DNA of 64,000 nucleotides from an uncultured Pseudokineococcus sp. Lineage in GTDB: Bacteria > Actinomycetota > Actinomycetes > Actinomycetales > Quadrisphaeraceae. The notes beneath the pieces were generated by a model that saw nothing but the letters and a program-made list of their open reading frames with translations, had not been told where the DNA came from and made no database searches. The stretch covers positions 1 through 64,000 of the forward strand of contig NZ_CANMAA010000001.1 in the NCBI RefSeq assembly GCF_947495735.1. The letters run 5' to 3'. The position numbers and the translations under genes were made by a program. Positions 7,582-51,908 of this stretch are shown here, in pieces (the first letter of the stretch is position 1; each line of letters starts with the position of its first letter).

Positions 7582-7756
7582 CGTTCCCACTGCTCCTCGT
7601 CCGCCTCCCGGCGGGGGGCCGGCCGGCCGCGCGTCGAGCTCGCTCCGCTCGTCCGTGCTCGGCTGGTCGGTGCTCTGGTCGTCTGGTCCGGCGCGTCCCA
7701 CGAGAGGGGGCAACGCCCCCCGGGGCCACCGCGTTCCGCGGCGACGTCCCGGCACC

Positions 7757-11733: not shown

Positions 11734-11794
11734 GCGCCCGCCGCACCGACGCACCCGGCGACCCGTCGCCCCTTCGAGAGAGAGAGGACCCGCC

Positions 11795-14231: not shown

Positions 14232-14395
14232 GGGTCCGACAGTACGGGGCGCCGCCGTCCTCGCCGGTGCGCACGGGTGACGTGCGCCACCGTCGGGGGC
14301 ACGACCCCTCGTCAGGACGGGTGGGTCGGGAAGCGACGGGCATACTCGGCCGCGGGAGACGTCCGTCCCCGGAGTCGGATGAGGAGGCGCCGCCC

Positions 14396-26091: not shown

Positions 26092-26329
26092 CTCGCTCCC
26101 GTCCCGTCGCGGACTGTCGAGGGCACCAACGTCCGTGGCAGCCCGTCCGTGCCCCGGTCGGTGACCGGCGCCCCCGTGCGGGCGGGCGCTCGGTCATCCT
26201 GCAGTGCTCGTCACCGTTTCAACCAGCTGGGGCGGTCTGCCCGGACGGAGCAGCAAGGTCGCGGCTGCGCCCGCCGAAGAGGGAGGACCAGCCGGCTGCG
26301 TCCGGCACCCGACGACGAGGAGCTCTTAC
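26092..26329. other. Divergent promoter region of the hydrolase pair
   Basis: 238 bp between two divergent glycoside-hydrolase genes. No clear promoter hexamers, riboswitch or repeat were recognised; a shared control region is likely from position only. Confidence 0.4.
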
Positions 26330-28306: not shown

Positions 28307-28312
28307 TACCGT
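28307..28312 (+). promoter_or_regulatory. Candidate -10 element (TACCGT)
   Basis: TACCGT lies ~80 nt before the GTG of the flippase gene, just past the upstream terminator. No clear -35. Confidence 0.25.
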
Positions 28313-28391
28313 GACGCAGGCTCGGCCCCCGCACCGCGTCCGCGGCCTCCACCGGTCCGGCTGCGCACGTCCCGGAGCTGGAGGTCCCGCG

Positions 28392-32066: not shown

Positions 32067-32198
32067 CCCGCGGGACCGCTCGTCCGGGGCGAGTCACTCG
32101 CGCGTCCGGTGCACGCCGCCCCGGACGGGGCCGGCCACGGGGGGTCGGCGTGCCAGGATCCGCGCGGACCGTCCGCAGAGAGCGAGAGAGGGGTCGCG

Positions 32199-33719
32199 GT
32201 GCGCGCCACGAGGTGGGTCCGAGACGTCCTGCGGGATCGTGAGCAGGGGATCGTCGTGACCGGCGCCGCCACCGCCGGCGCCTGCGTCGTCGGTGCGGCG
32301 CTCGTCGCCGCCGGTCCCCGGTGGGCCGTGGTGCTCGCCGTGGTGGGGGCCGCGCTGCTGGCGACCTGGGAGCGCGACACCGCCGCGCGCCTGGCGCTCG
32401 TGCTGGTGCCTCTCGTCGCGCTCGTGCGGCGCCTGACCGGGGGCCCGAACGCCTACGTCGAGAACGACCCCCTCGTCCTGCTCGTGCCGCTGCTGATCGC
32501 CCCGGCGCTCGCGGGCCTCCTGCGCCTGGAGGGTGACCGCCGGCTCGCGCGGGGGCGGTGGCTGTGGATCGGCCTGATCGGGTACTGGGCCGGCATCACG
32601 CTGGTCCAGCCCGGCGGCAGCCTGGTGGTGCGCCTCTTCGGCATCGTCAGCGTGCTGCTGCCCGCCGCCCTCGGCTACGCGGTCTTCGAGGGGCTGCACC
32701 AGCGCCTGCCCCGCTTCGCCCTGCTCTCGGTGCTCCTGCTGGCGCCCCTGGCCGCGATCTACGGCGTCCTCCAGTACTTCGTCAACCCCCCCTGGGACCT
32801 GGCCTGGCTGGCCGACCGCCAGGGGGACCTCATCAGCGTCGGGATGCCCGAGCCTGGCGCCTACCGCGTCTTCGGCAGCCTCGAGGCGCCGCTGCCCTTC
32901 GCGCTCTACCTCGGGCTGGGCCTCGTCGCCCTCGCCGCGTGGGCGCTGTGGGCGCGGCCGGGCGCCAGGGCGCTGCCGCTCGCCGTCCCGGCCGCGGTCG
33001 TCGTGGTGGTGGCGCTGGTGCTCACCGCTACCCGGTCCGTCCTTTTCGGACTGCCGCTGGTGGCCGCCCTGGCGGTCCTGGCCCTCCCCGGACGGCGCCG
33101 GGTCGCGGCCCTTGCGCTCACCGCCGTCGTCGCCGTGGCCACCCTCGTGGTCCCGGCCGTCGTCGCCGACCAGCTCTACGCGGGCGACGAGCGGCAGGCC
33201 GACCGGCTCCGCGTCGACCAGGTGGGGGAGGACACCTCCCTGCTGGCGCGCCTGGACCTGCTCGACGAGTTCACCGACGTCCTCGCCGCACCCCTCGGCT
33301 CCGGCCTGGGCACATCCGGGCAGGCGACGAGACTCGCGGGGGAGGAGGGCGCGGACAACGTCGACAACGGCTACCTGTCGATCGCGCAGGAGACCGGTGT
33401 CGTCGGCGCGGGGCTCTTCGTGGCCCTGGGGCTCACCGCGGCGGTGCGGGGGCGCCGGCTGCTGCAGGAGCGCATGACTCCCGCGCGGGGCTTCGCCACG
33501 GGCGGCAGCTACCTCGTCGTCGTGTACTTCCTGGTGCTGCTGCTCACGGGCGCCGTCCTCTCCAGCTCCTCGGCGGTGCTCTTCTGGGTGGCCCTGGGGC
33601 TGGTCACCCGCGAGACGTCCCTGCGCGCTGACGAGGCGTCGCAGACCGTGCGGCTGGCCGAAGCGCGGGCCACCGCCACGACGAGGCGCTCCGACGGCGG
33701 CCCCTCGCCCCGTCGCTGA
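32199..33719 (+). CDS. Wzy-type polymerase / O-antigen ligase family protein
   Basis: A 506-residue integral membrane protein with ~11-12 helices. The GTG has GAGAGAGGGG upstream. The large exported loop contains GMPEPGAYRVFGSLEAPLPFALYLGLG and, further on, LGSGLGTSGQATRLAGEEGADNVDNGYLSIAQETGVVG, the arrangement of the Wzy_C/O-antigen ligase domain (conserved Arg and His/Asn positions around the outer loop). Third gene of the flippase-GT-polymerase operon. It faces the BY-kinase gene across a 278-bp convergent gap. Confidence 0.87.
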   Translation: MRATRWVRDVLRDREQGIVVTGAATAGACVVGAALVAAGPRWAVVLAVVGAALLATWERDTAARLALVLVPLVALVRRLTGGPNAYVENDPLVLLVPLLIAPALAGLLRLEGDRRLARGRWLWIGLIGYWAGITLVQPGGSLVVRLFGIVSVLLPAALGYAVFEGLHQRLPRFALLSVLLLAPLAAIYGVLQYFVNPPWDLAWLADRQGDLISVGMPEPGAYRVFGSLEAPLPFALYLGLGLVALAAWALWARPGARALPLAVPAAVVVVVALVLTATRSVLFGLPLVAALAVLALPGRRRVAALALTAVVAVATLVVPAVVADQLYAGDERQADRLRVDQVGEDTSLLARLDLLDEFTDVLAAPLGSGLGTSGQATRLAGEEGADNVDNGYLSIAQETGVVGAGLFVALGLTAAVRGRRLLQERMTPARGFATGGSYLVVVYFLVLLLTGAVLSSSSAVLFWVALGLVTRETSLRADEASQTVRLAEARATATTRRSDGGPSPRR

Positions 33720-33997: not shown

Positions 33998-35413
33998 TCA
34001 GCGGCGGCCGCGCTCCGGTGCGCGCTCTCCGAACACCTGGTCGGCGGCGGAGGCGCCGCGCGCCGTCCTGGTCCGGTCCTCCTGACGAGGGGCGGAGGAG
34101 CCGTTCCCGTACCCGGAGGACAGGTCCGCCAGGTCGCGCTCCCCGACGCCGTTGACGACGACGCCGGCGATCGCCGCGCCAGCTCGCTCGAGCGTGTGGT
34201 GGAGGCGGTCGACGTGCTCCAGGCGAACCTGCCGCAAGCGGTGGACCACGACCGTGGTGTCCGTCATCGTCGCGAGCAGGGCAGGGTCGGCCACCGGGAG
34301 GGCTGCGGGGGAGTCGACCACGACGAGGTCGTACTCCTGGGTCAGGTGGTGCAGCAGGCGTTCCATCTCCGGGCTCCGGAGCACCCGCAGCGGGTTCTCC
34401 ACGGCTCGTCCGGCGGTGAGCACCTCGAGGTTCTGCACGGCAGTGGGCTCGACGGCCGAGTCGAGCGGTGCGCCGTCGAGGACGACGTCGGACAGGCCCG
34501 CGCCCTCGGGCAGCGAGAGCAGGGCGGCGACGGACGGACGGCGCAGGTCCGCGCCGACCAGGAGGACGCGCTGGCCGCCCTGGGCGGCCGCCACCGCGAG
34601 GCCCGTCGCCACGGTCGTCTTGCCCTCCCCGATCAGGGCGCTGGTCACGAGCACCGACCGGGGGGAGGCCTCGTGGGCGTAGGAGAGGCGCCCGGCGATC
34701 GTGCCGAAGACGTCGTCCTCCCGGTGGACGACGTCGTCGCCCTTGCGCGCCCGACCCACCAGACCGAGGACGGCGGGCGGGGTGTGCGTGCGGGAGAGGT
34801 CGCCGACGCGTCGCACGACGCCGTCCTTGCGCGCCAGCAGCACCGCGCCTGCCACGCCCAGGAGCGCGCCCAGCAGGAGGCCACCCGCCAGCGACACCGC
34901 CGTCGAGGGACCGTCGGCGTCCACCGGCAGCACGGGCTGCTCGACGACGCGCATCTCGATCGGCGAGACGCCGCCCTGGATCGGCGGCGGGTCGAGCTGG
35001 ACGACCAGCTCCTCGAGGAGGGCAGTGGTCACCCGCGCCGCTCGCAGGGCGCGCTGGGCGTCGGTGTCGCTGACCGTCGTGGTGAGCAGGACGGTGTCCT
35101 GGCGGACGGCGGCCTCGACGACCGGGTAGGTGCTGTCCGGCTCGACCGTCGGCAGCTGGTCCAGCACCTGGGAGCGGAAGGTGGAGCCGTTGACGATGGC
35201 GGCGTAGGACTCGGCGCGGGCGTCGACGTAGTCGCTCGCGCCCGTCGAGAAGCGGTTGGCCGCCTCTCCGGGGGCCACCAGGGCCAAGGAGTAGGTGGTG
35301 CTCGTCTCGTACACGCGGTCGCTGACGCTCACGAGAGCCAGCGCGCCGAGGAGACCGGCCACGGCCGCCAGCACGACCAGCCACCAGCGATCGCGCACCG
35401 CCGCCGTCGTCAC
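33998..35413 (-). CDS. Wzz/BY-kinase polysaccharide co-polymerase
   Basis: A 471-residue bacterial tyrosine-kinase-type chain-length regulator. TM1 is WWLVVLAAVAGLLGALALVSV, an exported loop of ~150 residues follows, and TM2 is AVSLAGGLLLGALLGVAGAVLLA. The cytoplasmic domain has Walker A SALIGEGKTTVATGLA (~259), Walker A' VLLVGADLRRPS and Walker B DLVVVDSPA (~361). The C-terminal tail holds only one Tyr (SSGYGNGS) rather than the usual Tyr cluster. Binds ATP to regulate polymer length and export. The start is uncertain: GTG at 35413 is used; a CTG four codons upstream with GGGAG spaced well is an alternative. The longer open frame upstream is shadow. Confidence 0.87.
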   Translation of the reverse strand: MTTAAVRDRWWLVVLAAVAGLLGALALVSVSDRVYETSTTYSLALVAPGEAANRFSTGASDYVDARAESYAAIVNGSTFRSQVLDQLPTVEPDSTYPVVEAAVRQDTVLLTTTVSDTDAQRALRAARVTTALLEELVVQLDPPPIQGGVSPIEMRVVEQPVLPVDADGPSTAVSLAGGLLLGALLGVAGAVLLARKDGVVRRVGDLSRTHTPPAVLGLVGRARKGDDVVHREDDVFGTIAGRLSYAHEASPRSVLVTSALIGEGKTTVATGLAVAAAQGGQRVLLVGADLRRPSVAALLSLPEGAGLSDVVLDGAPLDSAVEPTAVQNLEVLTAGRAVENPLRVLRSPEMERLLHHLTQEYDLVVVDSPAALPVADPALLATMTDTTVVVHRLRQVRLEHVDRLHHTLERAGAAIAGVVVNGVGERDLADLSSGYGNGSSAPRQEDRTRTARGASAADQVFGERAPERGRR

Positions 35414-35804
35414 AGTGGTGTCCAGCGTCTGCTCCCGTCCCTCCGGCGGTCCCCGGCCGCCGCCGCGGGACGGCGGCGGGGTGGGCGAGACCGGTTCCTG
35501 ATGGCACAGCCTGGCACAGGGGCGGGTGCCCACGGCCGGGATCCGGGCCGGTCCGGCGCCTGGGACCGGCGAGCCACCCGAGCGGGGGAGAGGCGACGGG
35601 CCGTCGTGACCCGGAGGGGTCAGCCCCGGTCCCGTCGCTGCCACGGCCGGAGGGCGGGCACCCCCGGGGTGGCAGGCGGTACCCTCCGGCGGGCTCGAGC
35701 GGGGAGGGCTCGTGAGGCGTCCGGGCGCTGGGGTGCGCCGGTCCAGGACGCCCGCGTCCCGGCGAGCGCACGAATCCGACGAGCGGCATCGCGAGGGGGC
35801 GCAC
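35414..35804. promoter_or_regulatory. 391-bp divergent region with TGGCACAG pair
   Basis: Separates the BY-kinase (minus) and GT2 (plus) genes. TGGCACAG occurs twice, 10 nt apart (35502-35509, 35512-35519), a direct repeat on one helix face that could bind a regulator. Near 35691 TACCCT may be the -10 for the GT2 gene. No gene was seen here. Confidence 0.35.
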
Positions 35805-36788
35805 GTGGAGCACGGACCCCGGGTCAGCATGGGGCTGCCCGTCTACAACGGCGAGAACTTCCTCGAGCGGCAGCTCGAGTCGCTGCTGTCGCAGACCTTC
35901 ACCGACTTCGAGCTCGTCATCTCGGACAACGCCTCCGAGGACCGCACGGAGGAGATCTGCCGCCGCTTCGCCGAGCGCGACCCGCGGATCCGCTACCACC
36001 GCAGCGACGTGAACCACGGTCTCGCGTGGAACTGGAACCGCGTCTTCGAGCTGTCCCGCGCGCCCTACTTCAAGTGGGTGGCCCACGACGACGAGCACGC
36101 CGAGACCTTCGTCGAGCGGTGCGTGGAGGTCCTCGACGCGGACCCCACGGTGGTGTGCTGCCACAGCGCGACGGTGGACGTCGACCCCGAGGGCCGGGAG
36201 ATCCGGCAGTGGCCGGCCCGGACGCTGCCCGCGTCCGAGCGCCCCTCCGTGCGCCTGGCCGACATGCTCAAGCCCTACCCGGCCTTCCAGGTCTACGGGC
36301 TCATGCGGCGGTCGGTGCTCGCCGAGACCGGCCTGCACCGGCCCATCCCCGAGATCGACCACGCCCTCCTCGCCGAGGTGGCCCTCCGGGGGCGGATCGT
36401 GGAGCTGCCCGAACCCCTGTTCCGCCGGCGTGAGCACCCCGCCCGCTCGGTGCGGGCCTTCACGACGGCGCGGGCCCGACGTGAGCTCTACCGGGACCCG
36501 ACGGCGGGGAGGGCCCGCGTGGCGGACTGGCCGGGCGTCCAGCTCAGCACCGAGATGGTGCGCGCCGTCCGTGAGGCCCCCGTCCGGGGCCGCGAGCGGG
36601 TCCTGTGCTGGCTCGCGCTGCGCCACTGGCTCGCCCGCGACGTCCGCAGGCTCGGGGCGCACCTCGTGCGGGAGGCGCTGGCGCGCGCCGGCCGTGAGGA
36701 CCTGCTGGTGGACACGGGTCTCGCCGCCCACTTGCGCGCGCGGCTGCCGCGCCGCGGGCGCAGCGGCGGGGACAGCGCCTCCGCCTGA
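35805..36788 (+). CDS. GT2 family glycosyltransferase
   Basis: A 327-residue GT-A enzyme with GTG start and GCGAGGGGG ~7 nt upstream. RVSMGLPVYNGENFLERQLESLLSQTFTDFEL, SDNASEDRTEEICRRF and KWVAHDDEHAETF (metal-binding DDE in place of DxD) are those of capsule and rhamnan glycosyltransferases. QVYGLMRRSVLAET and HALLAEVALRG follow. The longer upstream frame lacks such blocks and is ignored. It is alone on the plus strand, 235 nt before the oxidase operon. Confidence 0.86.
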   Translation: MEHGPRVSMGLPVYNGENFLERQLESLLSQTFTDFELVISDNASEDRTEEICRRFAERDPRIRYHRSDVNHGLAWNWNRVFELSRAPYFKWVAHDDEHAETFVERCVEVLDADPTVVCCHSATVDVDPEGREIRQWPARTLPASERPSVRLADMLKPYPAFQVYGLMRRSVLAETGLHRPIPEIDHALLAEVALRGRIVELPEPLFRRREHPARSVRAFTTARARRELYRDPTAGRARVADWPGVQLSTEMVRAVREAPVRGRERVLCWLALRHWLARDVRRLGAHLVREALARAGREDLLVDTGLAAHLRARLPRRGRSGGDSASA

Positions 36789-36952: not shown

Positions 36953-37030
36953 ATGCCAGGCGCGCAGCAGCAGCGCCCGCGCGGCGAGCGCGGGACGCCC
37001 GCCCGCCGTGCCGGGGGGACGTCGTGCTGA
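36953..37030 (+). CDS. Possible 25-residue leader peptide
   Basis: ATG with a strong GGAGGGA site 6 nt upstream; the peptide is MPGAQQQRPRGERGTPARRAGGTSC. It ends in a TGA 4 nt into the oxidase gene, so the oxidase GTG (37024) lies within its last codons. Overlap like this suggests translational coupling. It is rich in Arg and Gly, with a C-terminal Cys. It may be a regulatory leader, a real small protein, or chance. Confidence 0.35.
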   Translation: MPGAQQQRPRGERGTPARRAGGTSC

Positions 37031-38094
37031 GGGTGCTGGAGGACCAGCGGGCTCGCGCGGTCGACGCTCTGCCGGAGGGCGTGGCGTACTACTACGCCTC
37101 CGGGTCCGGGGACGAGGTGGCGCTCGGGGAGGCCGAGGCGGCGTGGCGGTCCTTCCGCCTGCGCCCCCGCCCGCTGCGCGACGTCTCGACCGTCGACCTT
37201 TCCACGCGCCTGCTGGGCGCGCCGCTGGGGAGCCCGCTGGGCGTGGCCCCCTCGGCCTTCCACCGGCTGGCGCACGAGGACGCCGAGGCGGCCACCGCCC
37301 GTGCGACCGGCGACGCCGGCGGGCTGTTCGTCCTCTCGACGCGCAGCTCGCTGCCGCTGGAGGACGTCGCCGCGGCGGCCACCGGGCCGTGGTGGTTCCA
37401 GGTCTACGTGATGCGCGACCGCGACCTCACCGCCCGCGTGGTGGAGCGCGCCGTCGCGGCGGGCGCCGGCGCGCTCGTCCTGACCGGTGACACGCCCTAC
37501 GTCGGGATCAAGAAGGGTCTGCAGGGCACCCGCATCGACCTGCCCGAGGACCACTTCCTCGTCAACCTGCGCCAGCACCTCGCGCCGGGGGCCGACAGCG
37601 CGCGGGCCGCCTCCCAGGACCCGTCGATCACGCTCGAGACCATCGCCTGGCTGCGGGAGATCAGCGGCCTGCCCGTCCTGGTCAAGGGGGTCCTGCGGGG
37701 GGACTCCGCCGTGGAGTGCCTGGACGCCGGCGCCGCCGGCGTCCTGGTCTCCACGCACGGCGGGCGCCAGCTCGACCGGGCCGTGCCCAGCGCGCTCGCG
37801 CTCGCCGAGGTCGTCGACGCCGTCGACGGCCGGGGGCTCGTCCTCGTCGACGGGGGGATCCGCTCCGGCGTCGACGTCCTGACCGCCCTGGCCCTCGGCG
37901 CCGACGCCGCGCTGCTGGGCCGCCCCGCGCTGTGGGCCCTGGCCGCGGGCGGCGAGGACGGCGTCCGCCGCTGCCTCGAGGCCGTCCGCGACGACCTGGC
38001 CCACGCCGCGGCGCTGGCGGGGTGCGCCGACCTGTCCGACGTGGACCGGTCCCTCGTCGCGCCTGCTCCGAACCCCTCGGGACGCCTGCCGTGA
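37024..38094 (+). CDS. FMN-dependent alpha-hydroxy-acid oxidase/dehydrogenase
   Basis: A 356-residue TIM-barrel flavoprotein of the LldD/glycolate oxidase family, oxidising an alpha-hydroxy acid to the keto acid with FMN. Seen: GVAPSAFHRLAHEDAE and FVLSTRSSLPLEDVA (flavin side), WWFQVYVMRDRD, VLTGDTPYVGIKKG (in place of the common TVDTP-x-GRR), VKGVLRGDSA (Lys near N1) and the active-site STHGGRQLD (catalytic His), then VDGGIRSGVDVLTALALGADAALLGRP (phosphate binding). Typical length. The GTG start overlaps a possible leader peptide. The next gene can begin within its stop codon (GTGA at 38091), so it is probably part of the sugar-nucleotide operon, an uncommon partner for these genes. Confidence 0.9.
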   Translation: MLRVLEDQRARAVDALPEGVAYYYASGSGDEVALGEAEAAWRSFRLRPRPLRDVSTVDLSTRLLGAPLGSPLGVAPSAFHRLAHEDAEAATARATGDAGGLFVLSTRSSLPLEDVAAAATGPWWFQVYVMRDRDLTARVVERAVAAGAGALVLTGDTPYVGIKKGLQGTRIDLPEDHFLVNLRQHLAPGADSARAASQDPSITLETIAWLREISGLPVLVKGVLRGDSAVECLDAGAAGVLVSTHGGRQLDRAVPSALALAEVVDAVDGRGLVLVDGGIRSGVDVLTALALGADAALLGRPALWALAAGGEDGVRRCLEAVRDDLAHAAALAGCADLSDVDRSLVAPAPNPSGRLP

Positions 38095-38147
38095 GCGCCC
38101 CGAGCTCCGACCACCCGGACGACCAGAAGACCAGCAGGGGGAACCCC

Positions 38148-38987
38148 ATGACCGCCGCACCAGAGAGCCAGCACCGCCCGGAGACCGCCGACATCCCCGT
38201 CGTCATCCTGTGCGGCGGCATGGGCACCCGCCTGCGCGAGGCCAGCGAGAAGCTGCCGAAGCCGCTCGTCGACATCGGCGGCGTGCCGATCCTGTGGCAC
38301 ATCATGAAGATCTACAGCGAGCACGGGTACCGGAAGTTCGTGCTCGCCCTCGGCTACAAGAGCGAGCTCATCAAGCGCCACTTCCTCGACCTGCGCGAGC
38401 AGGCCAGCGACTTCACGCTCCACCTCGCGGGCGACCACGTGCCGCAGTTCCACGACGGCGACGGCACGCACGAGGACTGGGAGGTGACCTTCGTCGAGAC
38501 CGGGCTCACCTCCGGCACCGGGGCGCGCATCGCCCGCCTCGCCGACCACCTGCAGGGGGAGACCTTCGCCCTCACCTACGGCGACGGCGTCAGCGACGTC
38601 GACCTCACCGCGCAGCTGGCCCACCACCGCGAGTCCGGCCGGGTGGCCACGGTGACCGGCGTCCACCCCACCAGCCGCTTCGGCGAGATGCGCCTGGACG
38701 AGAGCGGCTCCGCGGTCGAGGAGTTCAACGAGAAGCCCACCGTGGCCACCGGCTGGGTCAGCGGCGGGTTCTTCCTGTTCGAGCGCGCCTTCCTCACCGA
38801 CTACCTCGGCGACGACCCGGACCTCATGCTGGAGAAGCAGCCCCTGCAGCGGCTCGCCCGCGACGGGCAGCTCGGCCTGTTCGCCCACGAGGGCTTCTGG
38901 GGCAGCATGGACACCTACCGGGACTGGCTCGACCTCAACGGTCGCTGGGACTCCGGCGAGGCCGCCTGGAAGACCTGGAAGGACTGA
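38148..38987 (+). CDS. rfbF: Sugar-phosphate nucleotidylyltransferase (RfbF-like)
   Basis: A 279-residue transferase most like glucose-1-phosphate cytidylyltransferase, which makes CDP-glucose from CTP and glucose 1-phosphate. VVILCGGMGTRL is the nucleotide-binding loop, KLPKPLVDIGGVPILWHIMK the substrate-side Lys region; LTYGDGVSDVDLTAQLAHHRESGRVATVTGVHPTSRFGEM is the family signature (quoted as LTYGDGVSDVDL and TSRFGEM). ATG at 38148 has AGCAGGGGG ~6 nt upstream; an in-frame GTG at 38091 overlapping the upstream stop is the alternative start. Opens the set of four sugar-modifying genes. Confidence 0.86.
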   Translation: MTAAPESQHRPETADIPVVILCGGMGTRLREASEKLPKPLVDIGGVPILWHIMKIYSEHGYRKFVLALGYKSELIKRHFLDLREQASDFTLHLAGDHVPQFHDGDGTHEDWEVTFVETGLTSGTGARIARLADHLQGETFALTYGDGVSDVDLTAQLAHHRESGRVATVTGVHPTSRFGEMRLDESGSAVEEFNEKPTVATGWVSGGFFLFERAFLTDYLGDDPDLMLEKQPLQRLARDGQLGLFAHEGFWGSMDTYRDWLDLNGRWDSGEAAWKTWKD

Positions 38988-39048
38988 CGGCCGCGCCGAT
39001 ACCCGCCCGGACCCCCGCACCACCCGCACCCCCACCTCAGGAGCACCA

Positions 39049-40074
39049 GTGCGCGTACTCGTCACCGGCAGCGAGGGCTACCTCGGCTGCCTGCTCGGCC
39101 CCGCGCTCGCGCAGCGCGGGCACGACGTCGTCGGTCTCGACACCGGCTTCTTCACGAACGGCTGGCTCTACAACGGCGTCGAGCGCACCACCTCGACGCT
39201 GCTCAAGGACGTCCGCGACGTCACGGTGGAGGACCTGCGCGGGTTCGACGCCGTCGTCCACATGGCCGAGCTGTCCAACGACCCGCTCGGGGACCTGCTG
39301 GGCGAGGTGACCTACGCGGTCAACCACCACGGCTCGGTGCGCCTGGCGACCCTGGCCAAGGAGGCCGGCGTCAGCCGCTTCGTGCACATGTCCTCGTGCA
39401 GCGTGTACGGCGTGGCCGACGGGGTCGTCGACGAGACGTCCCCGACGAACCCGCAGACCGCCTACGCGGTGTGCAAGGAGCTGGTGGAGAAGGACGTCTC
39501 GGCGCTGGCCGACGACACCTTCTCGCCGACCTTCCTGCGCAACGCCACGGCCTTCGGCGCCTCGCCGCGCATGCGCTTCGACATCGTCCTCAACAACCTC
39601 TCCGGGCTGGCGTGGACGACGGGCGAGATCGCGATGACGAGCGACGGCAGCCCGTGGCGCCCGCTCGTGCACGCCCTCGACATCGGCAAGGCCATCCGCT
39701 GCGTGCTCGAGGCGCCCCGCGAGGCCGTCCACGCCGAGGTGTTCAACGTCGGCAGCGACGAGCAGAACTACCGCGTGCGCGACATCGCGGAGAAGGTCGC
39801 CGCCGCCTTCCCCGGCTGCACCACGAGCTTCGGCGAGCCCGGGGCCGACAACCGCAGCTACCGGGTGAGCTTCGCCAAGATCCACTCCCAGCTCCCCGGC
39901 TTCTCCTGCGACTGGGACGCCGACAGCGGCGCCCGCCAGCTGCAGGAGGTGTTCTCCCGCACCGCGATGGACGCCTCCACCTTCACCGGCCGCGGGCACA
40001 CCCGCCTCAAGCAGCTCGAGCACCTGCTGACGACCGAGCAGCTCGACCCCGAGCTCTTCTGGAGGACCCGATGA
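39049..40074 (+). CDS. NAD-dependent epimerase/dehydratase (extended SDR)
   Basis: A 341-residue short-chain dehydrogenase of the nucleotide-sugar type. VRVLVTGSEGYLGCLLG is the NAD-binding glycine motif, VHMSSCSVYGVAD the catalytic Ser region and TAYAVCKELVEK the catalytic Tyr-x3-Lys. RPLVHALDIGKAI is the substrate-binding helix. GTG start with CAGGAGC upstream, 61 nt after the cytidylyltransferase gene. It may be a dehydratase, epimerase or reductase on a CDP- or dTDP-sugar; there is no separate 4,6-dehydratase in the operon, so it could fill that step. Confidence 0.86.
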   Translation: MRVLVTGSEGYLGCLLGPALAQRGHDVVGLDTGFFTNGWLYNGVERTTSTLLKDVRDVTVEDLRGFDAVVHMAELSNDPLGDLLGEVTYAVNHHGSVRLATLAKEAGVSRFVHMSSCSVYGVADGVVDETSPTNPQTAYAVCKELVEKDVSALADDTFSPTFLRNATAFGASPRMRFDIVLNNLSGLAWTTGEIAMTSDGSPWRPLVHALDIGKAIRCVLEAPREAVHAEVFNVGSDEQNYRVRDIAEKVAAAFPGCTTSFGEPGADNRSYRVSFAKIHSQLPGFSCDWDADSGARQLQEVFSRTAMDASTFTGRGHTRLKQLEHLLTTEQLDPELFWRTR

Positions 40075-40607
40075 GGCTGACCCGCACCGCCCTCGACGGG
40101 CCGGTGGTCGTCGAGCTGGAGCACCGCGCCGACGACCGCGGCTTCTTCGCCCGCAGCTTCGACCGCGCCACCTTCGCCGAGGCCGGCCTGGAGGCGGTCG
40201 TCGAGCAGGCCAACGTCTCGTTCAACCACCGCGCGGGCACGCTGCGGGGCATGCACTACCAGCTGCCCCCGGCCACCGAGGCCAAGCTGGTGCGCTGCAC
40301 CGCCGGCGCGATCCTCGACGTCGTCGTGGACGTGCGCCCGGGCTCCCCGACGCGCCTGCAGCACGTCGCGGTCGAGCTCACGGCGGATAACCGCCGCGCG
40401 CTCTACGTGCCGCCGATGTTCGCCCACGGCTACCTCACGCTCACCGACGGCGCGGAGGTCGTCTACCAGGTGAGCGAGGCCTACACCCCGGGCGTCGAGC
40501 GGGGCCTGCGCCACGACGACCCCGTGCTGGGCATCGACTGGCCGCTTCCGGTCGCCGTCATCAGCGACAAGGACGCCGCCTGGCCCCTCCTGGAGGCCGG
40601 CGCGTGA
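40071..40607 (+). CDS. dTDP-4-dehydrorhamnose 3,5-epimerase-like cupin (RmlC/RfbC family)
   Basis: A 178-residue cupin. DDRGFFARSFD and NVSFNHRAGTLRGMHYQL (His and Lys/Tyr acid-base residues of RmlC), then AILDVVVDVRPGSPT and YVPPMFAHGYLTLTDGAEVVYQVSEAYTPGVERGLRHDDP. Epimerises or isomerises a 4-keto sugar. ATGA overlap with the SDR gene; GGAGG ~5 nt upstream. Of the usual length. Confidence 0.9.
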   Translation: MRLTRTALDGPVVVELEHRADDRGFFARSFDRATFAEAGLEAVVEQANVSFNHRAGTLRGMHYQLPPATEAKLVRCTAGAILDVVVDVRPGSPTRLQHVAVELTADNRRALYVPPMFAHGYLTLTDGAEVVYQVSEAYTPGVERGLRHDDPVLGIDWPLPVAVISDKDAAWPLLEAGA

Positions 40608-41911
40608 TCCTCGTCGACACGGCGCTGGCGCGGCGCGAGGCCGAGGGTCGCCCGGTCCGCGTGGCGATGGTCGGCGCCGGGTTCATGGGGCGCGGCGTCG
40701 CCAACCAGATCATCGGCAGCACGCCGGGCATGCGCCTCGTCGGCGTCTCCAACCGCCACCTCGACGGCGCCGTGCGCGCCTACCGCGAGGCGGGCGTGGA
40801 GGACGTCGACGTCGTGCACGACGCCGCGTCGGCGTCCGCGTCGATCGCCGCGGGCCGGCCCGTCGTCACCGAGGACGCGCTCGCGCTGGTGACGGCCGAC
40901 GGCGTCGACGTCGTCTGCGACGTCACCGGCGCGGTCGAGTTCGGCGCCGAGGTGACGCTGGCGGCCTTCGCGGCCGGCAAGCACGTCGTCACCATGAACG
41001 CCGAGCTTGACGGCACGGTGGGGCCGCTGCTGTCGGTCCTGGCCGAGCGCGCGGGGGTCGTGTTCTCCGGCGTGGACGGCGACCAGCCCGGCGTGGAGGT
41101 CAACCTCCACCGCTTCGTCACCGGCCGCGGGCTCACCCCGCTCGTCCTGGGCAACATCAAGGGACTGCAGGACACCCAGCGCACGCCCACCACGCAGGCC
41201 GGCTTCGCGGCCAAGTGGGGGCAGGACCCGGCCATGGTCACCAGCTTCGCCGACGGGACGAAGGTCTCCTTCGAGCAGGCGATCGTGGCCAACGCCACGG
41301 GCATGACCGTGGAGCGCCGGGGCATGGGCGGTCGCGACCACCGGGGCCACGTCGACGAGCTGACCGGCGCCTACGACGTCGAGCAGCTGCGCGCGCTCGG
41401 CGGCGTCGTGGACTACGTGGTCGGTGCCCAGCCGGGCCCGGGCGTCTTCTGCCTGGCGACCGTGGAGGACCCCAAGCAGCGCCACTACCTCGACCTCTAC
41501 AAGCTGGGGCCGGGGCCGCTGTACAGCTTCTACACGCCCTACCACCTGTGCCACTTCGAGGTGCCGGCGTCGCTGGCCCGCGCGGTGCTGTTCGACGACG
41601 CCGTCATCCGGGCCTCCGGTGCCCCCCGCGTCGAGGTGGTCGCCACGGCCAAGCGCGACCTGGCGCCCGGCGAGGTGCTCGACGGCCTCGGGGGCTACGA
41701 CACCTACGGCGAGGCGGAGACCGCGGCGGCGACGGCGGCCGATCGGCTGCTGCCGATGGGCGTCGCCGAGGGCTGCCGCGTCCTGCGCCCGGTGCGCCAG
41801 GGCGCCACGCTCACCGAGGACGACGTCGAGCTGCCCGCGGGGCGGCTGGTGGACGACCTGCGCCGCCAGCAGGCGGAGCTCTTCGCCGGGGACGCCGCTC
41901 CGCTCGGCTGA
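40604..41911 (+). CDS. SAF-domain NAD(P)-dependent oxidoreductase (COG4091-like)
   Basis: A 435-residue protein. RVAMVGAGFMGRGVANQII is the Rossmann NAD(P) motif; DVVCDVTGAVEFGAEVTLAAFAAGKHVVTMNAELDGTVGP resembles homoserine-dehydrogenase-type folds (cited as CDVTGAVEFG and VVTMNAEL). A C-terminal SAF domain (LAPGEVLDGLGGYDTYGEAE, VRQGATLTEDDVELP) follows at ~350-425. Members are annotated as predicted homoserine dehydrogenase-like; some sit in sugar operons. It is the last gene of the operon, GTGA-coupled to the epimerase. The reaction is unknown: oxidation or reduction of a modified sugar or its carboxylate is plausible. Confidence 0.85.
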   Translation: MILVDTALARREAEGRPVRVAMVGAGFMGRGVANQIIGSTPGMRLVGVSNRHLDGAVRAYREAGVEDVDVVHDAASASASIAAGRPVVTEDALALVTADGVDVVCDVTGAVEFGAEVTLAAFAAGKHVVTMNAELDGTVGPLLSVLAERAGVVFSGVDGDQPGVEVNLHRFVTGRGLTPLVLGNIKGLQDTQRTPTTQAGFAAKWGQDPAMVTSFADGTKVSFEQAIVANATGMTVERRGMGGRDHRGHVDELTGAYDVEQLRALGGVVDYVVGAQPGPGVFCLATVEDPKQRHYLDLYKLGPGPLYSFYTPYHLCHFEVPASLARAVLFDDAVIRASGAPRVEVVATAKRDLAPGEVLDGLGGYDTYGEAETAAATAADRLLPMGVAEGCRVLRPVRQGATLTEDDVELPAGRLVDDLRRQQAELFAGDAAPLG

Positions 41912-41927
41912 CCGGCTCCCGCGCGCA

Positions 41928-41970
41928 GCGCGCCGCCGACCGGCCCGTCACGGGCCGGTCGGCGGCGCGC
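41928..41970. terminator. 20-bp perfect hairpin, convergent terminator
   Basis: GCGCGCCGCCGACCGGCCCG and its exact complement enclose a TCA triloop. The loop is the reverse of the stop codon (TGA) of the phosphopantetheinyl transferase gene, so the 5' arm of its message holds the last codons. It sits 16 nt past the SAF oxidoreductase stop and so separates the sugar operon from the peptide operon. Confidence 0.85.
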
Positions 41971-42682
41971 TCTCGTGCTCCAGGGCCAGCGCGGCCACGT
42001 GCCCGGGCACGGCCAGGCCCCACGTGCGCAGGCCCACGGGCGCCGGCTCCTCGCCCCGCACCGGGGCGCCCGCGCCCTCGGGGTCGACGACGAAGCTCGC
42101 CAGGTCCCGGGCGAGCCCCTCGCCGGTCGCCTTCACGACGGCCTCCTTGCGCACCCACACCGCCAGGAAGCGCCCGGGCAGGTGGTCGCCGCCGGCGAGG
42201 ACCCAGTCCCGCTCGGCGGGCGGCAGCAGCGCGAGCGCCACGTCTCGGGCGTCGGGCGGGCCGGGGAGGCGCTCCAGGTCGACCCCGACGGGCCGCTCGG
42301 CCAGGGCCAGCAGGCCCTCCTCGCCGCTCGAGGCGGCGGAGGTGAAGAGCACCCGCCCGTCCGGGGCGGCCACCCGGCGCGGTCCCGCCCCCGGCAGCGG
42401 TCTCACCTCGGCGGGGTCCCCGCCGCACGCGGCGGCGACCGCGGCGCGCAGCAGCACCCTGCGCGCGACGAGCCGCCGTGCGGCGTCACCGGGCAGGTCC
42501 GCGAGGCGGCGGCGGTCGTCGGCGTCCAGCAGCGCGCCCGCGGCGTCCCCGGGCGCCGGGGCCAGGCGGGTGCGCCAGACCGCGGCGCCCCCCGCCCCCG
42601 GCAGCCGGACCAGCCGCTCGTCACCCGAGGGCGCCGGGGCAGGACCGGACGGGGCGCCCCCGCCCGGCCCTGGCGCGGTCAC
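41948..42682 (-). CDS. 4'-phosphopantetheinyl transferase (Sfp superfamily)
   Basis: A 244-residue transferase that moves phosphopantetheine from CoA to the Ser of carrier domains. VGVDLERL (~133, metal-binding Asp) and FLAVWVRKEAVVKATGEGL (~170-190, W-x3-KEA-x2-K) are the two signature blocks. It is the last gene of the NRPS operon, coupled by GTGA to the second synthetase (GTG at 42682, one codon inside a longer GTG start), so it should arm the three carrier domains encoded next to it. Its stop codon is the loop of the 41928-41970 hairpin. Confidence 0.9.
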   Translation of the reverse strand: MTAPGPGGGAPSGPAPAPSGDERLVRLPGAGGAAVWRTRLAPAPGDAAGALLDADDRRRLADLPGDAARRLVARRVLLRAAVAAACGGDPAEVRPLPGAGPRRVAAPDGRVLFTSAASSGEEGLLALAERPVGVDLERLPGPPDARDVALALLPPAERDWVLAGGDHLPGRFLAVWVRKEAVVKATGEGLARDLASFVVDPEGAGAPVRGEEPAPVGLRTWGLAVPGHVAALALEHESAPPTGP

Positions 42683-45600
42683 CACCTGGCGACCACCCCG
42701 GCCACCACCCGGGCGGTCTCGTCCACCAGCGGCGCCAGCAGCATCGCGTGGTGGTCGCCGGCGAGGGGCACCACCTCCAGGTCACGGCAGCGGGACGCCC
42801 ACCCGAGGTCGTCCCCGCGCACGTCGCGGGCCTCCTCGGACGTGAGCACGACGACCGGGAAGTCCACGGACCGGACCCGCGTCCGCAGCACCGCCTGCCC
42901 GTCCTGGTGGTTGCGCACCCGGGAGCGCGTGCTCCCCGCGTCCGGGAGGTCGGCGCCCGGGGCCGGCCAGCTGCGCTCCTCCCGCCGCATCCGGGCCCGC
43001 CGCACGACGCCGCGCGCCACGTCCTCGGCCCGCGCGAGCGGCGTGTCCCAGGAGCTGGGCGCGATGGTGTCCAGGAGCACGGCGGCCCCGCGACGGTCCC
43101 CGAGCGCGCGCGCCACCTCGAGGGCCACGACGCCGGAGGCCGAGTGCCCGAGCACGTGCACCGGTCCCTCGGGCAGGCGCCCGGCGATGAGCTCGGCCGC
43201 GCGGCGGCCGTCCGCCACGAGGTCGGGGATCTCGGCGCCCTCGGCGGGCAGCGAGCGCATCAGGGTCCAGAGCGAGGTGTCGGGCAGGGCCCGCGCCAGC
43301 GCGTGCTGCAGGACCAGGGCCTCGGCGCCGTCCCGGGCCACGAGGACGACGGGCGGCCCGCTCGTGCCGCGCCGGACCGGGAGGAGCCTGGCCGGCACCG
43401 GTCCCGCGGGGGCCGTCGTCGCGTCCTCGGCCCCGAGCGCGGCGATGCCCCGGGCGCTCGGGGCGCGCACGAGCTCGTGGAGGGGGACCACGAGGTCCAG
43501 CTCCGCGCGCAGGCGCCCGACGAGGCGCGCGGCGAGCAGCGAGCTGCCGCCCGCGGCGAAGAAGTCGTCGTCGGTCCCGAGCCCGTCCTCGCTGAGCACC
43601 TCCCGCAGGACCCCCAGCACCGCGAGCTCGCGGGAGGACGCGGCCGTGCCGGCCCCGTCCGCCGGGTGCGCGCTGCCGGCGGAGCCGGGCGCGGCCGCGC
43701 GCACGTGCTCGGCCGCGCGGCGCCGCAGGGCGGCGCGGTCGAGCTTGCCGCTCGCCACCCGGGGGAGGGCGTCGAGCACGGCCACCGCGTCGGGCACCCA
43801 GGCGGGCGGCAGCACCCCGGCCAGCGCCTCCCGCAGGCCGGTGGCGTCGAGCTCCCGCGGCGCCACGAGGCCGACCAGGCGCGGGCGGCCCTCGTGGACC
43901 ACCTCGACGGCGGCCTCCCGCACGCCCGGCAGGCGCCGCAGGGCGGTCTCGACCTCGCCGAGCTCGACCCGCTGGCCCCGCAGCTTGACCTGCCGGTCCC
44001 GGCGGCCGCGGTACTCCAGCTGGCCGTCGGGGCGCCAGCTGACGAGGTCGCCGGTGGCGTACCAGCGGACCTCCCGGCCCCCGGCCTCCTCGACCGAGAA
44101 CGCGGCGGCGGCCGGGTCGCCGGCGGGCACCCCCTCGTACCCGGCGGCCACGCAGGGACCGCCGATGCGGAGCTCGCCGACCGCGCCGGGCGGCAGCCGG
44201 CGGCCGGCGGCGTCCACCACCCGCACGGTCGTCCCGGGGTGGGGCCGGCCGATGGGCAGGGGGCGCCCCGACGCGGCGTCGGCGGCCGTGACCTCCGAGG
44301 CCGTGGCCGTGACGACGGTCTCGGTGGGGCCGTAGGAGTCGAGCAGCCGCGTGCCCGGCAGGAGCCGGTGGTGAGCCGCGGCGAGCGCCGGCGGCACGAC
44401 GTCGCCGCCGGCGAGCACGCGCCGCAGGGAGACCAGCGAGCCCGGCCCGGCGGCGCCCAGGAGCGCCTCCAGCACCCCGGGCACGACGAACACGTCCGTG
44501 ACGTCGTGGTCGTGCACCAGGCGGGCGAGCGCGAGGGGGTCGGCCACCTCCTCGTCGCGCGGCAGCACCAGGCAGCCGCCCGTGGCGAGCACCCAGAACA
44601 GGTACACGGAGGCGTCGAAGGCGAGCGTCGACTGCAAGAGGAAGCGCACGTCGCGGGTCGCCAGCACCTCGCGGTAGGACAGCGAGCGGGCCACCACGGC
44701 GCCGTCGGGGACGCGCACCGCTTTCGGCTCGCCCGTCGAGCCCGACGTCGGCATGAGGTAGGCCAGGTCCTGCGGGGTGCGCGCCGGCCAGGAGGGCGGT
44801 GCGGGCGCCGGCCGGTGCGGGGCGCCGGCGTCGTCGACGGCCACGGCGGTGGCGCCCGTCGCGGCCGCGAGGGCGTCGGCCCACGCGGGGGCGCCCACGA
44901 CGGCGGAGGCGCCGGCGCGGCGGGCGACCAGCGCCTGGCGCTCCGCGGGGTGCCCGACGTCGACCGGCACGAACGCCGCGCCGGCGCGCAGCACGGCCAG
45001 CAGGCTGACGAGCAGGCCCGGCACCCGGCGGCTGGGGACGGCCACGCGGTCGCCGGGGCGCACCCCCGCGCCCAGCAGCGCCGCCGCGAGGGCGTCGGCC
45101 CGCGCCACCAGCTCCTCGCCGGTGACCGCGCCGTCGTCGGTGACCAGCACGGGGAGCGCGCGCTCCATCCCCGCCAGCACGTGGGTGAGCAGGTCCTCGG
45201 CCGGCTCCGGCCCCGCCGCGCCCTCCCAGGCGGCGAGCCGCTCGCGCTCCTCCTCGTCGAGGACCTCGAGCTCGCCCAGGGGCGTCGCGGGCTCCGCCAG
45301 CGCCGCGTCGAGCAGCCGCAGCACCGTCTCCAGCAGCGCGTCGGCCGACGCGCGGTCGAGCACGGAGGGGTCGTGCTCCAGCCGCAGCCCGACCCGGTCG
45401 CCCCGCAGGCGCACCGTCCAGGACTGCTCGGCCTTGGGCGAGCCGAGCGGCAGGTCGACGTGCGCGACCGCCGGTCCACCGGTCCCCAGGGCGTCGCGCT
45501 CGTCGCCGGAGAGCAGGTTGACGTAGACGCGGGGCAGGACGGCGGCGGGGTCGGCCCCGCGGCGCCGCAGCTCCTCGACGACCTGGTCGAGCGGCGCCGG

Positions 45601-46707
45601 CACCGCGATGGCGGCGGCCACGGCGTCGCGCACCGCCCCGGCCGCCTCCAGCAGCGAGCGGTCGAGCACGTCGTCGACGACGAGCGCCGCGGTCTCCACG
45701 AGGAGGGCGACGACGTCCTCGCTGCCGGGGTCCTGCCAGCGCAGGTCCACCGGGGCGCCGAGGGCGGGGCTCCGCGGTCCGGCGAGCCCGTCGGGCCCGG
45801 AGCGGGACAGGGCCGCGGCGACCACCGCCGTCACCACGGCGAAGGGCGTGAGCCCGCGGGTGTCGGCGACGCGCGCGAGGCGGGAGGAGACCGCCCGCGG
45901 CAGCTCGCGCACGCGCACGTCCGTGCGGGCGGCGCTCGTCCGCGACGGCTCGGCGTCCTCGCCGGCGGCGCGCAGGAGCGCCTCGGCGCGCGCGACGGCG
46001 GCCTCGCGGGCGGCCGGCGAGGCGGCCGCCCCGCGCAGCGCGCGCGCCACGTCGCGGGGCGAGCGCGAGGTCGGCAGGACGGGCTCGCCGCCCGTCGTGG
46101 CCGCCTCGTAGCGCTCGCCCAGCTCGTCGAGCAGCACCGAGAGGGACGTGGCGTCGCACGCCACGTGGTGGACGACGAGCACTAGCACGTGGTCGTCCTC
46201 GGCCAGGCGGGCGAGGCCCGCGCGCCACAGCGGGCCCTCCAGCAGGTCCAGCGGCTCCTCGGCGAGGGCCGTGACCCACGCGGCGGCGGCGGCGGGCAGG
46301 CGTCGCCCGCCGGCCGCAGCGGGGGCGTCGCCGTCGAGCGCGGCCCGGCGCACGTCCGGGTCCGCGTCGTCGACCAGCACCTGCACGACGCCGTCGGCGT
46401 CGGCGCGCACCCGGCTGCGCAGCCACTCGTGGCGCTCGGGCAGCGCCCGCAGCGCCGCGAGCAGCGCGGTCTCGTCGAGGGCGCCCGCGAGGCGCAGCAC
46501 GACCGCCTCGCTGTAGGCGGTCGAGCCCGGGTCCAGCAGCTGCAGGACGGCGAGGCGCTCGGCGTTCGGCGCCAGGCGGCCCGGTGCCCGTCGCCGGGCC
46601 CGCAGCGCCTCCGCGAGCCGGGCGCGGTTCAGGGCGGCGGCGTCCTGCGCGGGGCGCTCGTCCTGCCGCGGCCGCTCGTCCTGCTCGGTCGTGCCCGACG
46701 TGGTCAT
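42679..46707 (-). CDS. NRPS, terminal module C-A-T-TE
   Basis: A 1342-residue single-module synthetase. Condensation domain ~45-470 with the active site VVHHVACD (~179; HHxxxD kept). Adenylation domain ~490-960: YLMPTSGSTGEPKAV, FDASVYLF, SYGPTETVV, YATGDLV and ASGKLDR; hand alignment to GrsA gives pocket residues near D-A-Y-F-V-A-S-V-T-K, which I do not recognise. Carrier domain ~1010-1085 (FFAAGGSSLLAAR, pantetheine Ser ~1052). Thioesterase ~1105-1342 (GHSASGVVALE Ser ~1188, GDHHAML His ~1320), releasing the product by hydrolysis or cyclisation. ATG overlaps the upstream synthetase stop by ATGA. Confidence 0.93.
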   Translation of the reverse strand: MTTSGTTEQDERPRQDERPAQDAAALNRARLAEALRARRRAPGRLAPNAERLAVLQLLDPGSTAYSEAVVLRLAGALDETALLAALRALPERHEWLRSRVRADADGVVQVLVDDADPDVRRAALDGDAPAAAGGRRLPAAAAAWVTALAEEPLDLLEGPLWRAGLARLAEDDHVLVLVVHHVACDATSLSVLLDELGERYEAATTGGEPVLPTSRSPRDVARALRGAAASPAAREAAVARAEALLRAAGEDAEPSRTSAARTDVRVRELPRAVSSRLARVADTRGLTPFAVVTAVVAAALSRSGPDGLAGPRSPALGAPVDLRWQDPGSEDVVALLVETAALVVDDVLDRSLLEAAGAVRDAVAAAIAVPAPLDQVVEELRRRGADPAAVLPRVYVNLLSGDERDALGTGGPAVAHVDLPLGSPKAEQSWTVRLRGDRVGLRLEHDPSVLDRASADALLETVLRLLDAALAEPATPLGELEVLDEEERERLAAWEGAAGPEPAEDLLTHVLAGMERALPVLVTDDGAVTGEELVARADALAAALLGAGVRPGDRVAVPSRRVPGLLVSLLAVLRAGAAFVPVDVGHPAERQALVARRAGASAVVGAPAWADALAAATGATAVAVDDAGAPHRPAPAPPSWPARTPQDLAYLMPTSGSTGEPKAVRVPDGAVVARSLSYREVLATRDVRFLLQSTLAFDASVYLFWVLATGGCLVLPRDEEVADPLALARLVHDHDVTDVFVVPGVLEALLGAAGPGSLVSLRRVLAGGDVVPPALAAAHHRLLPGTRLLDSYGPTETVVTATASEVTAADAASGRPLPIGRPHPGTTVRVVDAAGRRLPPGAVGELRIGGPCVAAGYEGVPAGDPAAAAFSVEEAGGREVRWYATGDLVSWRPDGQLEYRGRRDRQVKLRGQRVELGEVETALRRLPGVREAAVEVVHEGRPRLVGLVAPRELDATGLREALAGVLPPAWVPDAVAVLDALPRVASGKLDRAALRRRAAEHVRAAAPGSAGSAHPADGAGTAASSRELAVLGVLREVLSEDGLGTDDDFFAAGGSSLLAARLVGRLRAELDLVVPLHELVRAPSARGIAALGAEDATTAPAGPVPARLLPVRRGTSGPPVVLVARDGAEALVLQHALARALPDTSLWTLMRSLPAEGAEIPDLVADGRRAAELIAGRLPEGPVHVLGHSASGVVALEVARALGDRRGAAVLLDTIAPSSWDTPLARAEDVARGVVRRARMRREERSWPAPGADLPDAGSTRSRVRNHQDGQAVLRTRVRSVDFPVVVLTSEEARDVRGDDLGWASRCRDLEVVPLAGDHHAMLLAPLVDETARVVAGVVARW

Positions 46708-51818: not shown

Positions 51819-51908
51819 GGGGGGCTCCTGGGTGGTGCGGTGCGGACTCTCCCGACGGTAGGAGATCCGCGCCTCCCGCCGCTCACTCTTCGTAGGTAGA
51901 GGACTCGA
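51819..51908. promoter_or_regulatory. 90-bp bidirectional NRPS/ABC control region
   Basis: The synthetase operon (minus) and the ABC transporter (plus) start back to back with only 90 bp between them, containing the ribosome site of the former (AGGAG) and TAGGTAGAGGACTCG just before the ATG of the latter. TAGGAGAT at ~51857 could be a -10 on the plus strand. Shared control is inferred from geometry. Confidence 0.4.

Follow-up and report, generated by a model that had tools for sequence, protein, structure and literature searches.

The first 64,000 nucleotides of contig NZ_CANMAA010000001.1 (RefSeq assembly GCF_947495735.1), from an uncultured Pseudokineococcus sp. and here called the window, carry an operon of five tightly packed, co-directional genes on the forward strand (37024-41911) that, on balance, appears to make an activated branched-chain sugar, cytidine diphosphate (CDP)-dihydrohydroxystreptose, for a surface polysaccharide. 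The genes encode a flavin mononucleotide (FMN)-dependent 2-hydroxy-acid oxidase (HAO), an RfbF-like cytidylyltransferase, a short-chain dehydrogenase/reductase (SDR), an RmlC-type epimerase and a protein with the fold of the reductoisomerase DXR-II, here called DRL (DXR-II-like), which would contract the sugar ring (Table 1). The set represents a conserved module that very likely makes a CDP-activated sugar of the 6-hydroxy 4-keto type, with recycling of 2-oxoglutarate, and that probably ends in ring contraction by the DXR-like enzyme.

With the substrates and the CDP carrier that we infer, RfbF would make CDP-glucose from glucose 1-phosphate and CTP. The SDR would oxidize C4 without loss of water, its bound NADH being reoxidized by 2-oxoglutarate with release of L-2-hydroxyglutarate, which HAO would return to 2-oxoglutarate. 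Epimerization at C3 and C5 by RmlC would give a 6-hydroxy 4-keto-L-sugar, on which DRL would perform a retro-aldol/aldol rearrangement of the kind that DXR performs on deoxyxylulose phosphate, pushing out one carbon as an aldehyde for subsequent reduction with NAD(P)H. In this way, a 4-ketopyranose whose 2- and 3-hydroxyls are free would shrink to a furanose that bears a hydroxymethyl branch, yielding CDP-dihydrohydroxystreptose, the sugar being 3-C-(hydroxymethyl)-L-lyxose. A nearby glycosyltransferase would add it to the polymer, and the family 2 glycosyltransferase (GT2) encoded upstream of HAO is a candidate for this step.

Streptomyces griseus and Coxiella burnetii are named as producers of streptose and dihydrohydroxystreptose (PMC9095892). 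The route proposed there for dihydrohydroxystreptose consists of a C4-oxidase, an epimerase and a ring contraction, and that 2022 paper leaves two activities without an enzyme, the formation of the 6-hydroxy 4-keto substrate and the ring contraction. The operon offers one candidate for each, from harmless organisms. A search of the open-licence PMC literature, with subscription papers outside its scope, found no described pathway with exactly this gene set, a finding that would have spoken against the preliminary description of the locus, and no paper assigning the set, or the DLO1 family to which DRL appears to belong, to a sugar.

The enzymes of the operon

Genes were called from open reading frames and codon-position GC, and families were assigned from profile matches to the window proteins. 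The coding signal is strong in all five genes, with a third-position GC of 0.97-0.99 for HAO, SDR and DRL. Gaps of 53 nt (HAO-RfbF) and 61 nt (RfbF-SDR) and 4-nt overlaps at both the SDR/RmlC and RmlC/DRL junctions, together with the coding signal and the family matches, bear out the tight linkage claimed in the preliminary description. That description had extended the group to 42682, but the last 0.75 kb is a minus-strand phosphopantetheinyl transferase (PPTase) gene on the side of the non-ribosomal peptide synthetase (NRPS) genes. Its “COG4091-like SAF dehydrogenase” is indeed an NAD-binding protein with a SAF domain, although DRL, a protein of the DXR-II fold with a DRL_cat domain (PF21135), is the better name. 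The start codon of HAO is uncertain, as the Cellulomonas relative is longer.

A CDP-glucose 4,6-dehydratase had been reported as missing from the operon, and this absence proves informative. The SDR does not match TIGR02622, the model for this enzyme (RfbG), and has the motif SSCSVYG at the position of STDEVYG in RmlB and T[TS]DK in RfbG, so that the Asp-Lys pair, whose residues have a role in dehydration, is absent. A profile made from 14 SDRs scored 160 bits on PDB entry 6vo6, titled Cj1427, and 99 bits on the next structure. Because its nearest solved relative is Cj1427 by a wide margin, the YxxxK motif is kept (Y139, K143) and the dehydratase motif is absent, the SDR is proposed from its sequence to be a non-dehydrating C4-dehydrogenase of the Cj1427 type with 2-oxoglutarate as electron acceptor.

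Cj1427 itself is described as a ping-pong C4-dehydrogenase that acts before a C3/C5-epimerase and whose tightly held NADH is reoxidized by 2-oxoglutarate to give L-2-hydroxyglutarate (PMC10680097). The Campylobacter heptose route resembles the proposed pathway in this oxidation of C4 without dehydration, followed by an epimerase and then reduction. It differs in its GDP-heptose substrate and its reductase, and the passages describing it note no partner like HAO or the L-2-hydroxyglutarate oxidase LhgO.

The nearest solved relative of DRL is Brucella DXR-II. The DRL model (predicted local distance difference test score, pLDDT, of 89) gives template-modeling (TM) scores of 0.88-0.90 to DXR-II (0.90 to 3upy), whereas the fold ranked next reaches ~0.43. 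DXR-II, an enzyme of the methylerythritol phosphate (MEP) pathway, shares its fold and domain order with DRL, but two of its three substrate-analogue anchors are replaced. These anchors, K191, K193 and T229, hold the inhibitor fosmidomycin in DXR-II (PMC3847144), and the window DRL has N, K and V in their place, leaving the set incomplete. Residues were counted in 130 DRLs that passed length and stop filters, 100 of them (window included) at least 47% identical to the window protein and 30 more distant. In all 100 close DRLs, K191 is replaced by N, T229 by I, V or L (88, 11 and 1, respectively) and R320, at the dimer interface, by T or V, while the equivalents of K193, D167, Y322 and H323 are kept. 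The 30 distant proteins have K at the first of the replaced positions in 27 cases, T or S at the second in 27 and R at the third in 28. An active site that is largely kept, with a changed phosphate grip, suggests a substrate other than a sugar phosphate.

The family has been divided into DXR-II, DLO1 and DLO2, with DLO1 described without a function (PMC3847144). Replacement of Thr229 by Leu, Ile or Val, which distinguishes DLO1, is seen in the window DRL (V). The published DLO1 list includes S. griseus and five C. burnetii strains (PMC3847144, Table 1 therein), and the genera Nostoc, Anabaena, Deinococcus and Frankia are common to the DRL loci and the published sequences. Formally, the conversion of deoxyxylulose phosphate to MEP and that of a 4-keto-L-sugar to dihydrostreptose may be seen as the same reaction, in which a ketone with two adjacent carbinols would expel one carbon as an aldehyde that is then reduced. 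For the ring contraction, cleavage of the C3-C4 bond is stated in PMC9095892; the analogy with DXR predicts cleavage of C2-C3 and formation of C2-C4. The DLO1 family might consist of ring-contracting reductoisomerases of nucleoside diphosphate (NDP) sugars and account for the synthases still lacking for streptose, hydroxystreptose and dihydrohydroxystreptose; together with the 2-oxoglutarate-driven C4-dehydrogenase and a dedicated L-2-hydroxyglutarate recycler (LhgO, or HAO as its non-orthologous replacement), it would form a widespread CDP-sugar module whose sugar is also present in heterocyst envelopes. This generalization could about equally be right or wrong. If true, one fold would link isoprenoid and branched-sugar chemistry, L-2-hydroxyglutarate oxidase would gain a role in polysaccharide clusters, alr2825-alr2831 would have a proposed product for the heterocyst envelope, and the assignment of StrL, an RmlD homologue, as dihydrostreptose synthase would be questioned.

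Conservation of the gene set and its oxidase

The gene set, which had been called odd from the window alone, is conserved elsewhere. A genome scan for DRL gave 555 confirmed matches, of which the best 80 loci were fetched. RmlC is encoded in 79 of these 80 (L041 is the sole exception) and SDR and RfbF in most, a linkage far above chance. RfbF-SDR-RmlC-DRL is found across Actinomycetota, Cyanobacteria, Planctomycetota, Deinococcota and Alphaproteobacteria, and homologous sets on Deinococcus, Paracoccus and Gemmobacter plasmids are surrounded by polysaccharide genes. A tblastn panel was run on 87 sources, made up of the window, the 80 DRL loci and six plasmid loci. An SDR at least 50% identical is present in 59 of them, an SDR below 50% in 6, RfbG without SDR in 7 and neither in 15, which include three short contigs (L040, L051 and L114).

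The window has HAO where most other loci have LhgO. In Deinococcus, the operon order is RfbF-LhgO-SDR-RmlC-DRL, with the gene annotated as lhgO. The 59 sources with an SDR of at least 50% include 54 with an LhgO relative, two with HAO (the window and Cellulomonas marina, L098) and three with neither: L039, a 4.8 kb contig; L122, with a 28% LhgO relative; and L062, from Streptomyces. Neither oxidase is present in any of the seven RfbG-only sources (Fisher 1.5e-7 against the SDR sources, uncorrected for relatedness and with most sources being cyanobacteria). With the LhgO equivalog model NF008726, which has a cut-off of 299, a Nostoc and a Deinococcus protein (L048 and L119) reach 625 and 583 bits, whereas the window genome has no LhgO above it, with a best score of 45 bits. 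The window HAO belongs to a different family (PF01070); its Cellulomonas relative is 68% identical and is also encoded near DRL. Because most SDR-type loci carry LhgO or HAO and RfbG-only loci carry neither, HAO is better read as recycling L-2-hydroxyglutarate to 2-oxoglutarate than as acting on the sugar, and it is proposed to replace the unrelated FAD enzyme LhgO used by most other organisms.

The same association is seen in the window's family, in which DRL is present in 9 of 13 genomes. An HAO at least 59% identical is found in eight of these nine, the window genome included, and in none of the four without DRL (p=0.007), two of which hold relatives at 51% and 43%. Among the eight other DRL-bearing genomes, seven have HAO relatives at 59-66% and none has LhgO. 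HAO is 1.2 kb from DRL in G586 and 12.6-16.2 kb away in G590, G591, G593 and G594. Another genome of the same order as the window, G139, has LhgO and lacks HAO.

The heterocyst envelope polysaccharide (HEP) island of Anabaena PCC 7120, alr2825-alr2841 (PMC4390870), is among the closest known systems, although the literature passages assign no sugar to it: alr2825 (cytidylyltransferase), alr2827 (epimerase/dehydratase), alr2830 (rfbC) and alr2831 (NAD(P) oxidoreductase) follow in this order, and the homologous Nostoc locus holds HepA above its cut-off. The island differs from the window in having LhgO, which by gene order corresponds to the “hypothetical” alr2826, where the window has HAO. HepA relatives are present in 33 of the 59 SDR loci and in 3 RfbG loci, indicating that the exchange of SDR and RfbG occurs inside HEP-type islands.

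Several loci depart from the common arrangement. In three cyanobacterial, HepA-bearing loci (L061, L115 and L117), RfbG takes the place of SDR and LhgO between RfbF and RmlC, which predicts a 6-deoxy version of the sugar, and L074, from Chloroflexota, combines a 48% SDR with adjacent RfbG and LhgO. A second SDR class, 38-41% identical, occurs with RmlC and DRL in L042, L045, L065, L079 and L121, which have neither LhgO nor HAO. Several Frankia/Pseudonocardia and Acetobacteraceae loci have just an RmlC-DRL pair, or a lone DRL, among other genes; the pair is present without RfbF or SDR in L085, L086, L089, L105 and L106 (~8450-10290) from Frankia/Pseudonocardia, and in L086, it is close to an M50 protease gene and to gcpE, which belongs to the MEP pathway of isoprenoid synthesis. 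In the HEP-type locus L048, a gene at 7465-8277, between a glycosyltransferase gene and RmlC, has no NCBIfam match.

Streptose producers and alternative readings

A DRL search was made in 392 genomes of one genus, taken as Streptomyces, with L062 (G198), from S. griseocarneus, as reference. Four genomes have a DRL 81-89% identical to that of L062, all in the same type of cluster, and three more have more distant DRLs. The L062 locus encodes APH(6), a second APH, an aminotransferase and paired ABC exporters, plus RmlA, RmlB, RmlC and RmlD of the deoxythymidine diphosphate (dTDP) route. DRL is present in all five streptomycin-type clusters found. Two of them (G198 and G533) also have RfbF, SDR and an extra RmlC, while G544, G442 and G232 have DRL without these three, and in the latter genomes, RfbF is absent at E<=1e-10 and none of the SDRs at E<=1e-20 exceeds 32% identity. 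In the G533 cluster (L139, 2286-4154), from an assembly that is 86% complete, only 69 residues of the RmlB homologue still match and RmlD is fragmentary, while DRL, RfbF, SDR, the extra RmlC and other markers are kept. LhgO is encoded elsewhere in all five Streptomyces genomes searched. A constant DRL with optional RfbF, SDR and extra RmlC is the pattern that ring contraction by DRL, on a 6-hydroxy substrate provided by the other enzymes, would produce.

The streptomycin pathway (StrDELM and DRL, leading to dihydrostreptose) shares the RmlC and DRL families with the window, and two of the five clusters add RfbF and SDR. It differs in that streptose is made by way of a dTDP 4,6-dehydratase route, for whose ring contraction the literature proposes an RmlD paralogue. 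C. burnetii makes the sugar proposed here and, in the passages available, has an RmlC (CBU1838), a DLO1 protein and the SDR CBU_1837, a putative epimerase near CBU_1834 (PMC3539893). It has an RmlA-type (dTDP) enzyme where the window has RfbF. The DLO1 protein appears in a list, and no literature passage was found that places its gene beside CBU1838.

Several points weigh against the operon being a route to CDP-dihydrohydroxystreptose. A fold search with the SDR structure predicted by AlphaFold (pLDDT 79) is not specific to Cj1427, with MoeE5 ranked first, and RfbF falls just below the TIGR02623 cut-off (275.1 against 300.25 bits), albeit well above other nucleotidyltransferase models. An oxidase partner is lacking in five loci of the lower-identity SDR class (below 50%) and in the fetched stretch (up to ~9 kb on each side, up to 20 kb long) of eight of nine further loci of relatives, and RfbF is missing from that stretch in six of those relatives' loci. 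The HAO relative in G592 is just 46% identical, and in G585 and G595, HAO and DRL are on different contigs, at odds with tight linkage. S. griseocarneus is presumably a hydroxystreptomycin producer, and the literature search found no paper on it. Four of the five Streptomyces clusters contain a near full-length RmlD homologue, which leaves room for a different function of DRL in them, and the enzyme favored for the ring contraction is an RmlD paralogue (PMC9095892). Four tested DLO1 and DLO2 proteins failed to replace DXR in dxr complementation (PMC3847144), and in Coxiella, cbu0825-0856 are assigned to dihydrohydroxystreptose and cbu1831-1838 to other O-antigen parts (PMC5843353). A candidate marker in RmlC gave no support. 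In CBU1838, a Phe-to-Met change is proposed to make room for the 6-hydroxyl (PMC9095892); at this position, Tyr is found in both SDR and RfbG routes, namely in 56 of 59 SDR-class matches (the other three have Phe) and in six cyanobacterial RfbG loci, with Phe in five low-identity SDR loci. The residue thus tracks lineage rather than route.

The most serious alternative, possible but doubtful, is that DRL is a plain C4-ketoreductase in an otherwise identical route. The product would then be a CDP-L-hexose with a 6-hydroxyl (for example, of the L-mannose or L-talose type), a non-deoxy analogue of L-rhamnose. The Campylobacter GDP-L-gluco-heptose route follows such a logic, with a C4-dehydrogenase, a C3/C5-epimerase and a C4-reductase (PMC10680097), and since the panel found no RmlD relative above 100 bits in any of the 87 sources, reduction needs some other enzyme. 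However, characterized members of the DRL fold carry out reductoisomerization, DRL is also kept in the three streptomycin-type clusters without RfbF, SDR and the extra RmlC, and in four of the five clusters, it is accompanied by an RmlD homologue able to serve as reductase. It is unlikely that HAO is a passenger without a role in the pathway or that its substrate is a sugar acid, with the remaining steps as proposed. The FMN enzyme family is broad, the proposed substrate is a prediction and the gene is not always adjacent to DRL, but HAO shares the operon in the window, lies near DRL in Cellulomonas and within 17 kb of it in five family genomes, tracks the presence of DRL and occurs where LhgO is absent.

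Older proposals gave such genes an L-hexosamine role. It is very improbable that RfbF, SDR, RmlC and DRL make an activated L-hexosamine, the N-methyl-L-glucosamine of streptomycin, in Streptomyces and by extension in the window, even though strP, strQ and strX are called essential streptomycin genes outside the cluster (2025, PMC12498427). Three of the five streptomycin-type clusters, and their genomes at the thresholds used, lack RfbF and SDR, and the extra RmlC is absent from those clusters. The split among the five clusters argues against this role for the S. griseocarneus genes. Least credible of all is a role in supplying the NRPS with a sugar-acid or amino-acid-like building block, for which physical proximity alone speaks. 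The NRPS genes run on the other strand and are separated from the operon by an inverted repeat, likely a two-way terminator to judge from its sequence, with the PPTase gene on their side and polymer genes on that of the sugar operon, and homologous sets elsewhere are located among polysaccharide genes. Of the products considered in the preliminary description, an unusual sugar is thus favored over a sugar acid or an NRPS building block.

Neighboring features

The flippase, the Wzy-like ligase and the GT2 and double GT4 glycosyltransferase genes upstream place the operon in a polymer locus rather than an NRPS pathway (Table 1).

Table 1. Features of the sugar operon and its surroundings in the window, with dTDP-route genes of locus L129 from the Streptomyces comparison.
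Feature	Position	Strand	Evidence or remark
Polysaccharide flippase, context	28311-29684	+	PF13440, PF01943
O-antigen ligase/Wzy-like, context	32109-33719	+	PF04932, 57.6 bits
ParA/AAA_31-domain protein, perhaps a polysaccharide tyrosine kinase	34001-35830	-	upstream of GT2
GT2, candidate transferase	35811-36788	+	PF00535, 101 bits; gap to HAO 235 nt
HAO, FMN-dependent 2-hydroxy-acid oxidase	37024-38094	+	PF01070 (FMN_dh), 354 bits; PDB lactate/glycolate oxidases
RfbF-like glucose-1-phosphate cytidylyltransferase	38148-38987	+	TIGR02623, 275.1 bits; PDB 1tzf, 227.8 bits
SDR, putative NDP-glucose C4-dehydrogenase, Cj1427 type	39049-40074	+	profile best on PDB 6vo6; SSCSVYG motif
RmlC-type 3,5-epimerase	40071-40607	+	TIGR01221, 167.9 bits (cut-off 155.75)
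DRL (NAD-binding domain, DRL_cat, SAF), putative ring-contracting reductoisomerase	40604-41911	+	PF21135, 169 bits; PDB 3upl, 217 bits
Inverted repeat, likely a two-way terminator for the convergent genes of DRL and PPTase	41927-41971		45-nt self-match on opposite strand, 98%
PPTase, outside the sugar operon	41951-42685	-	PF01648, 49.7 bits; adjoins NRPS genes
L129, RmlC	~10977-11483	+	dTDP route
L129, RmlD	11602-12663	-	dTDP route
L129, RmlB	12545-13531	-	dTDP route
L129, RmlA	within 13608-14984	-	dTDP route

Adjoining the polymer genes, a plus-strand gene at 26204-28219 encodes a protein whose C terminus holds a malectin (carbohydrate-binding) domain. Apart from the sugar operon, two NRPS genes with the domains A-T-C-A-T and C-A-T-TE occupy 42679-53570 on the minus strand, with the PPTase gene alongside, and an ABC transporter reading frame lies at 51909-53663 on the plus strand. 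Beyond the NRPS genes, a second Wzy/O-antigen-ligase gene (56388-57911, plus strand) suggests a second polymer locus in the window.

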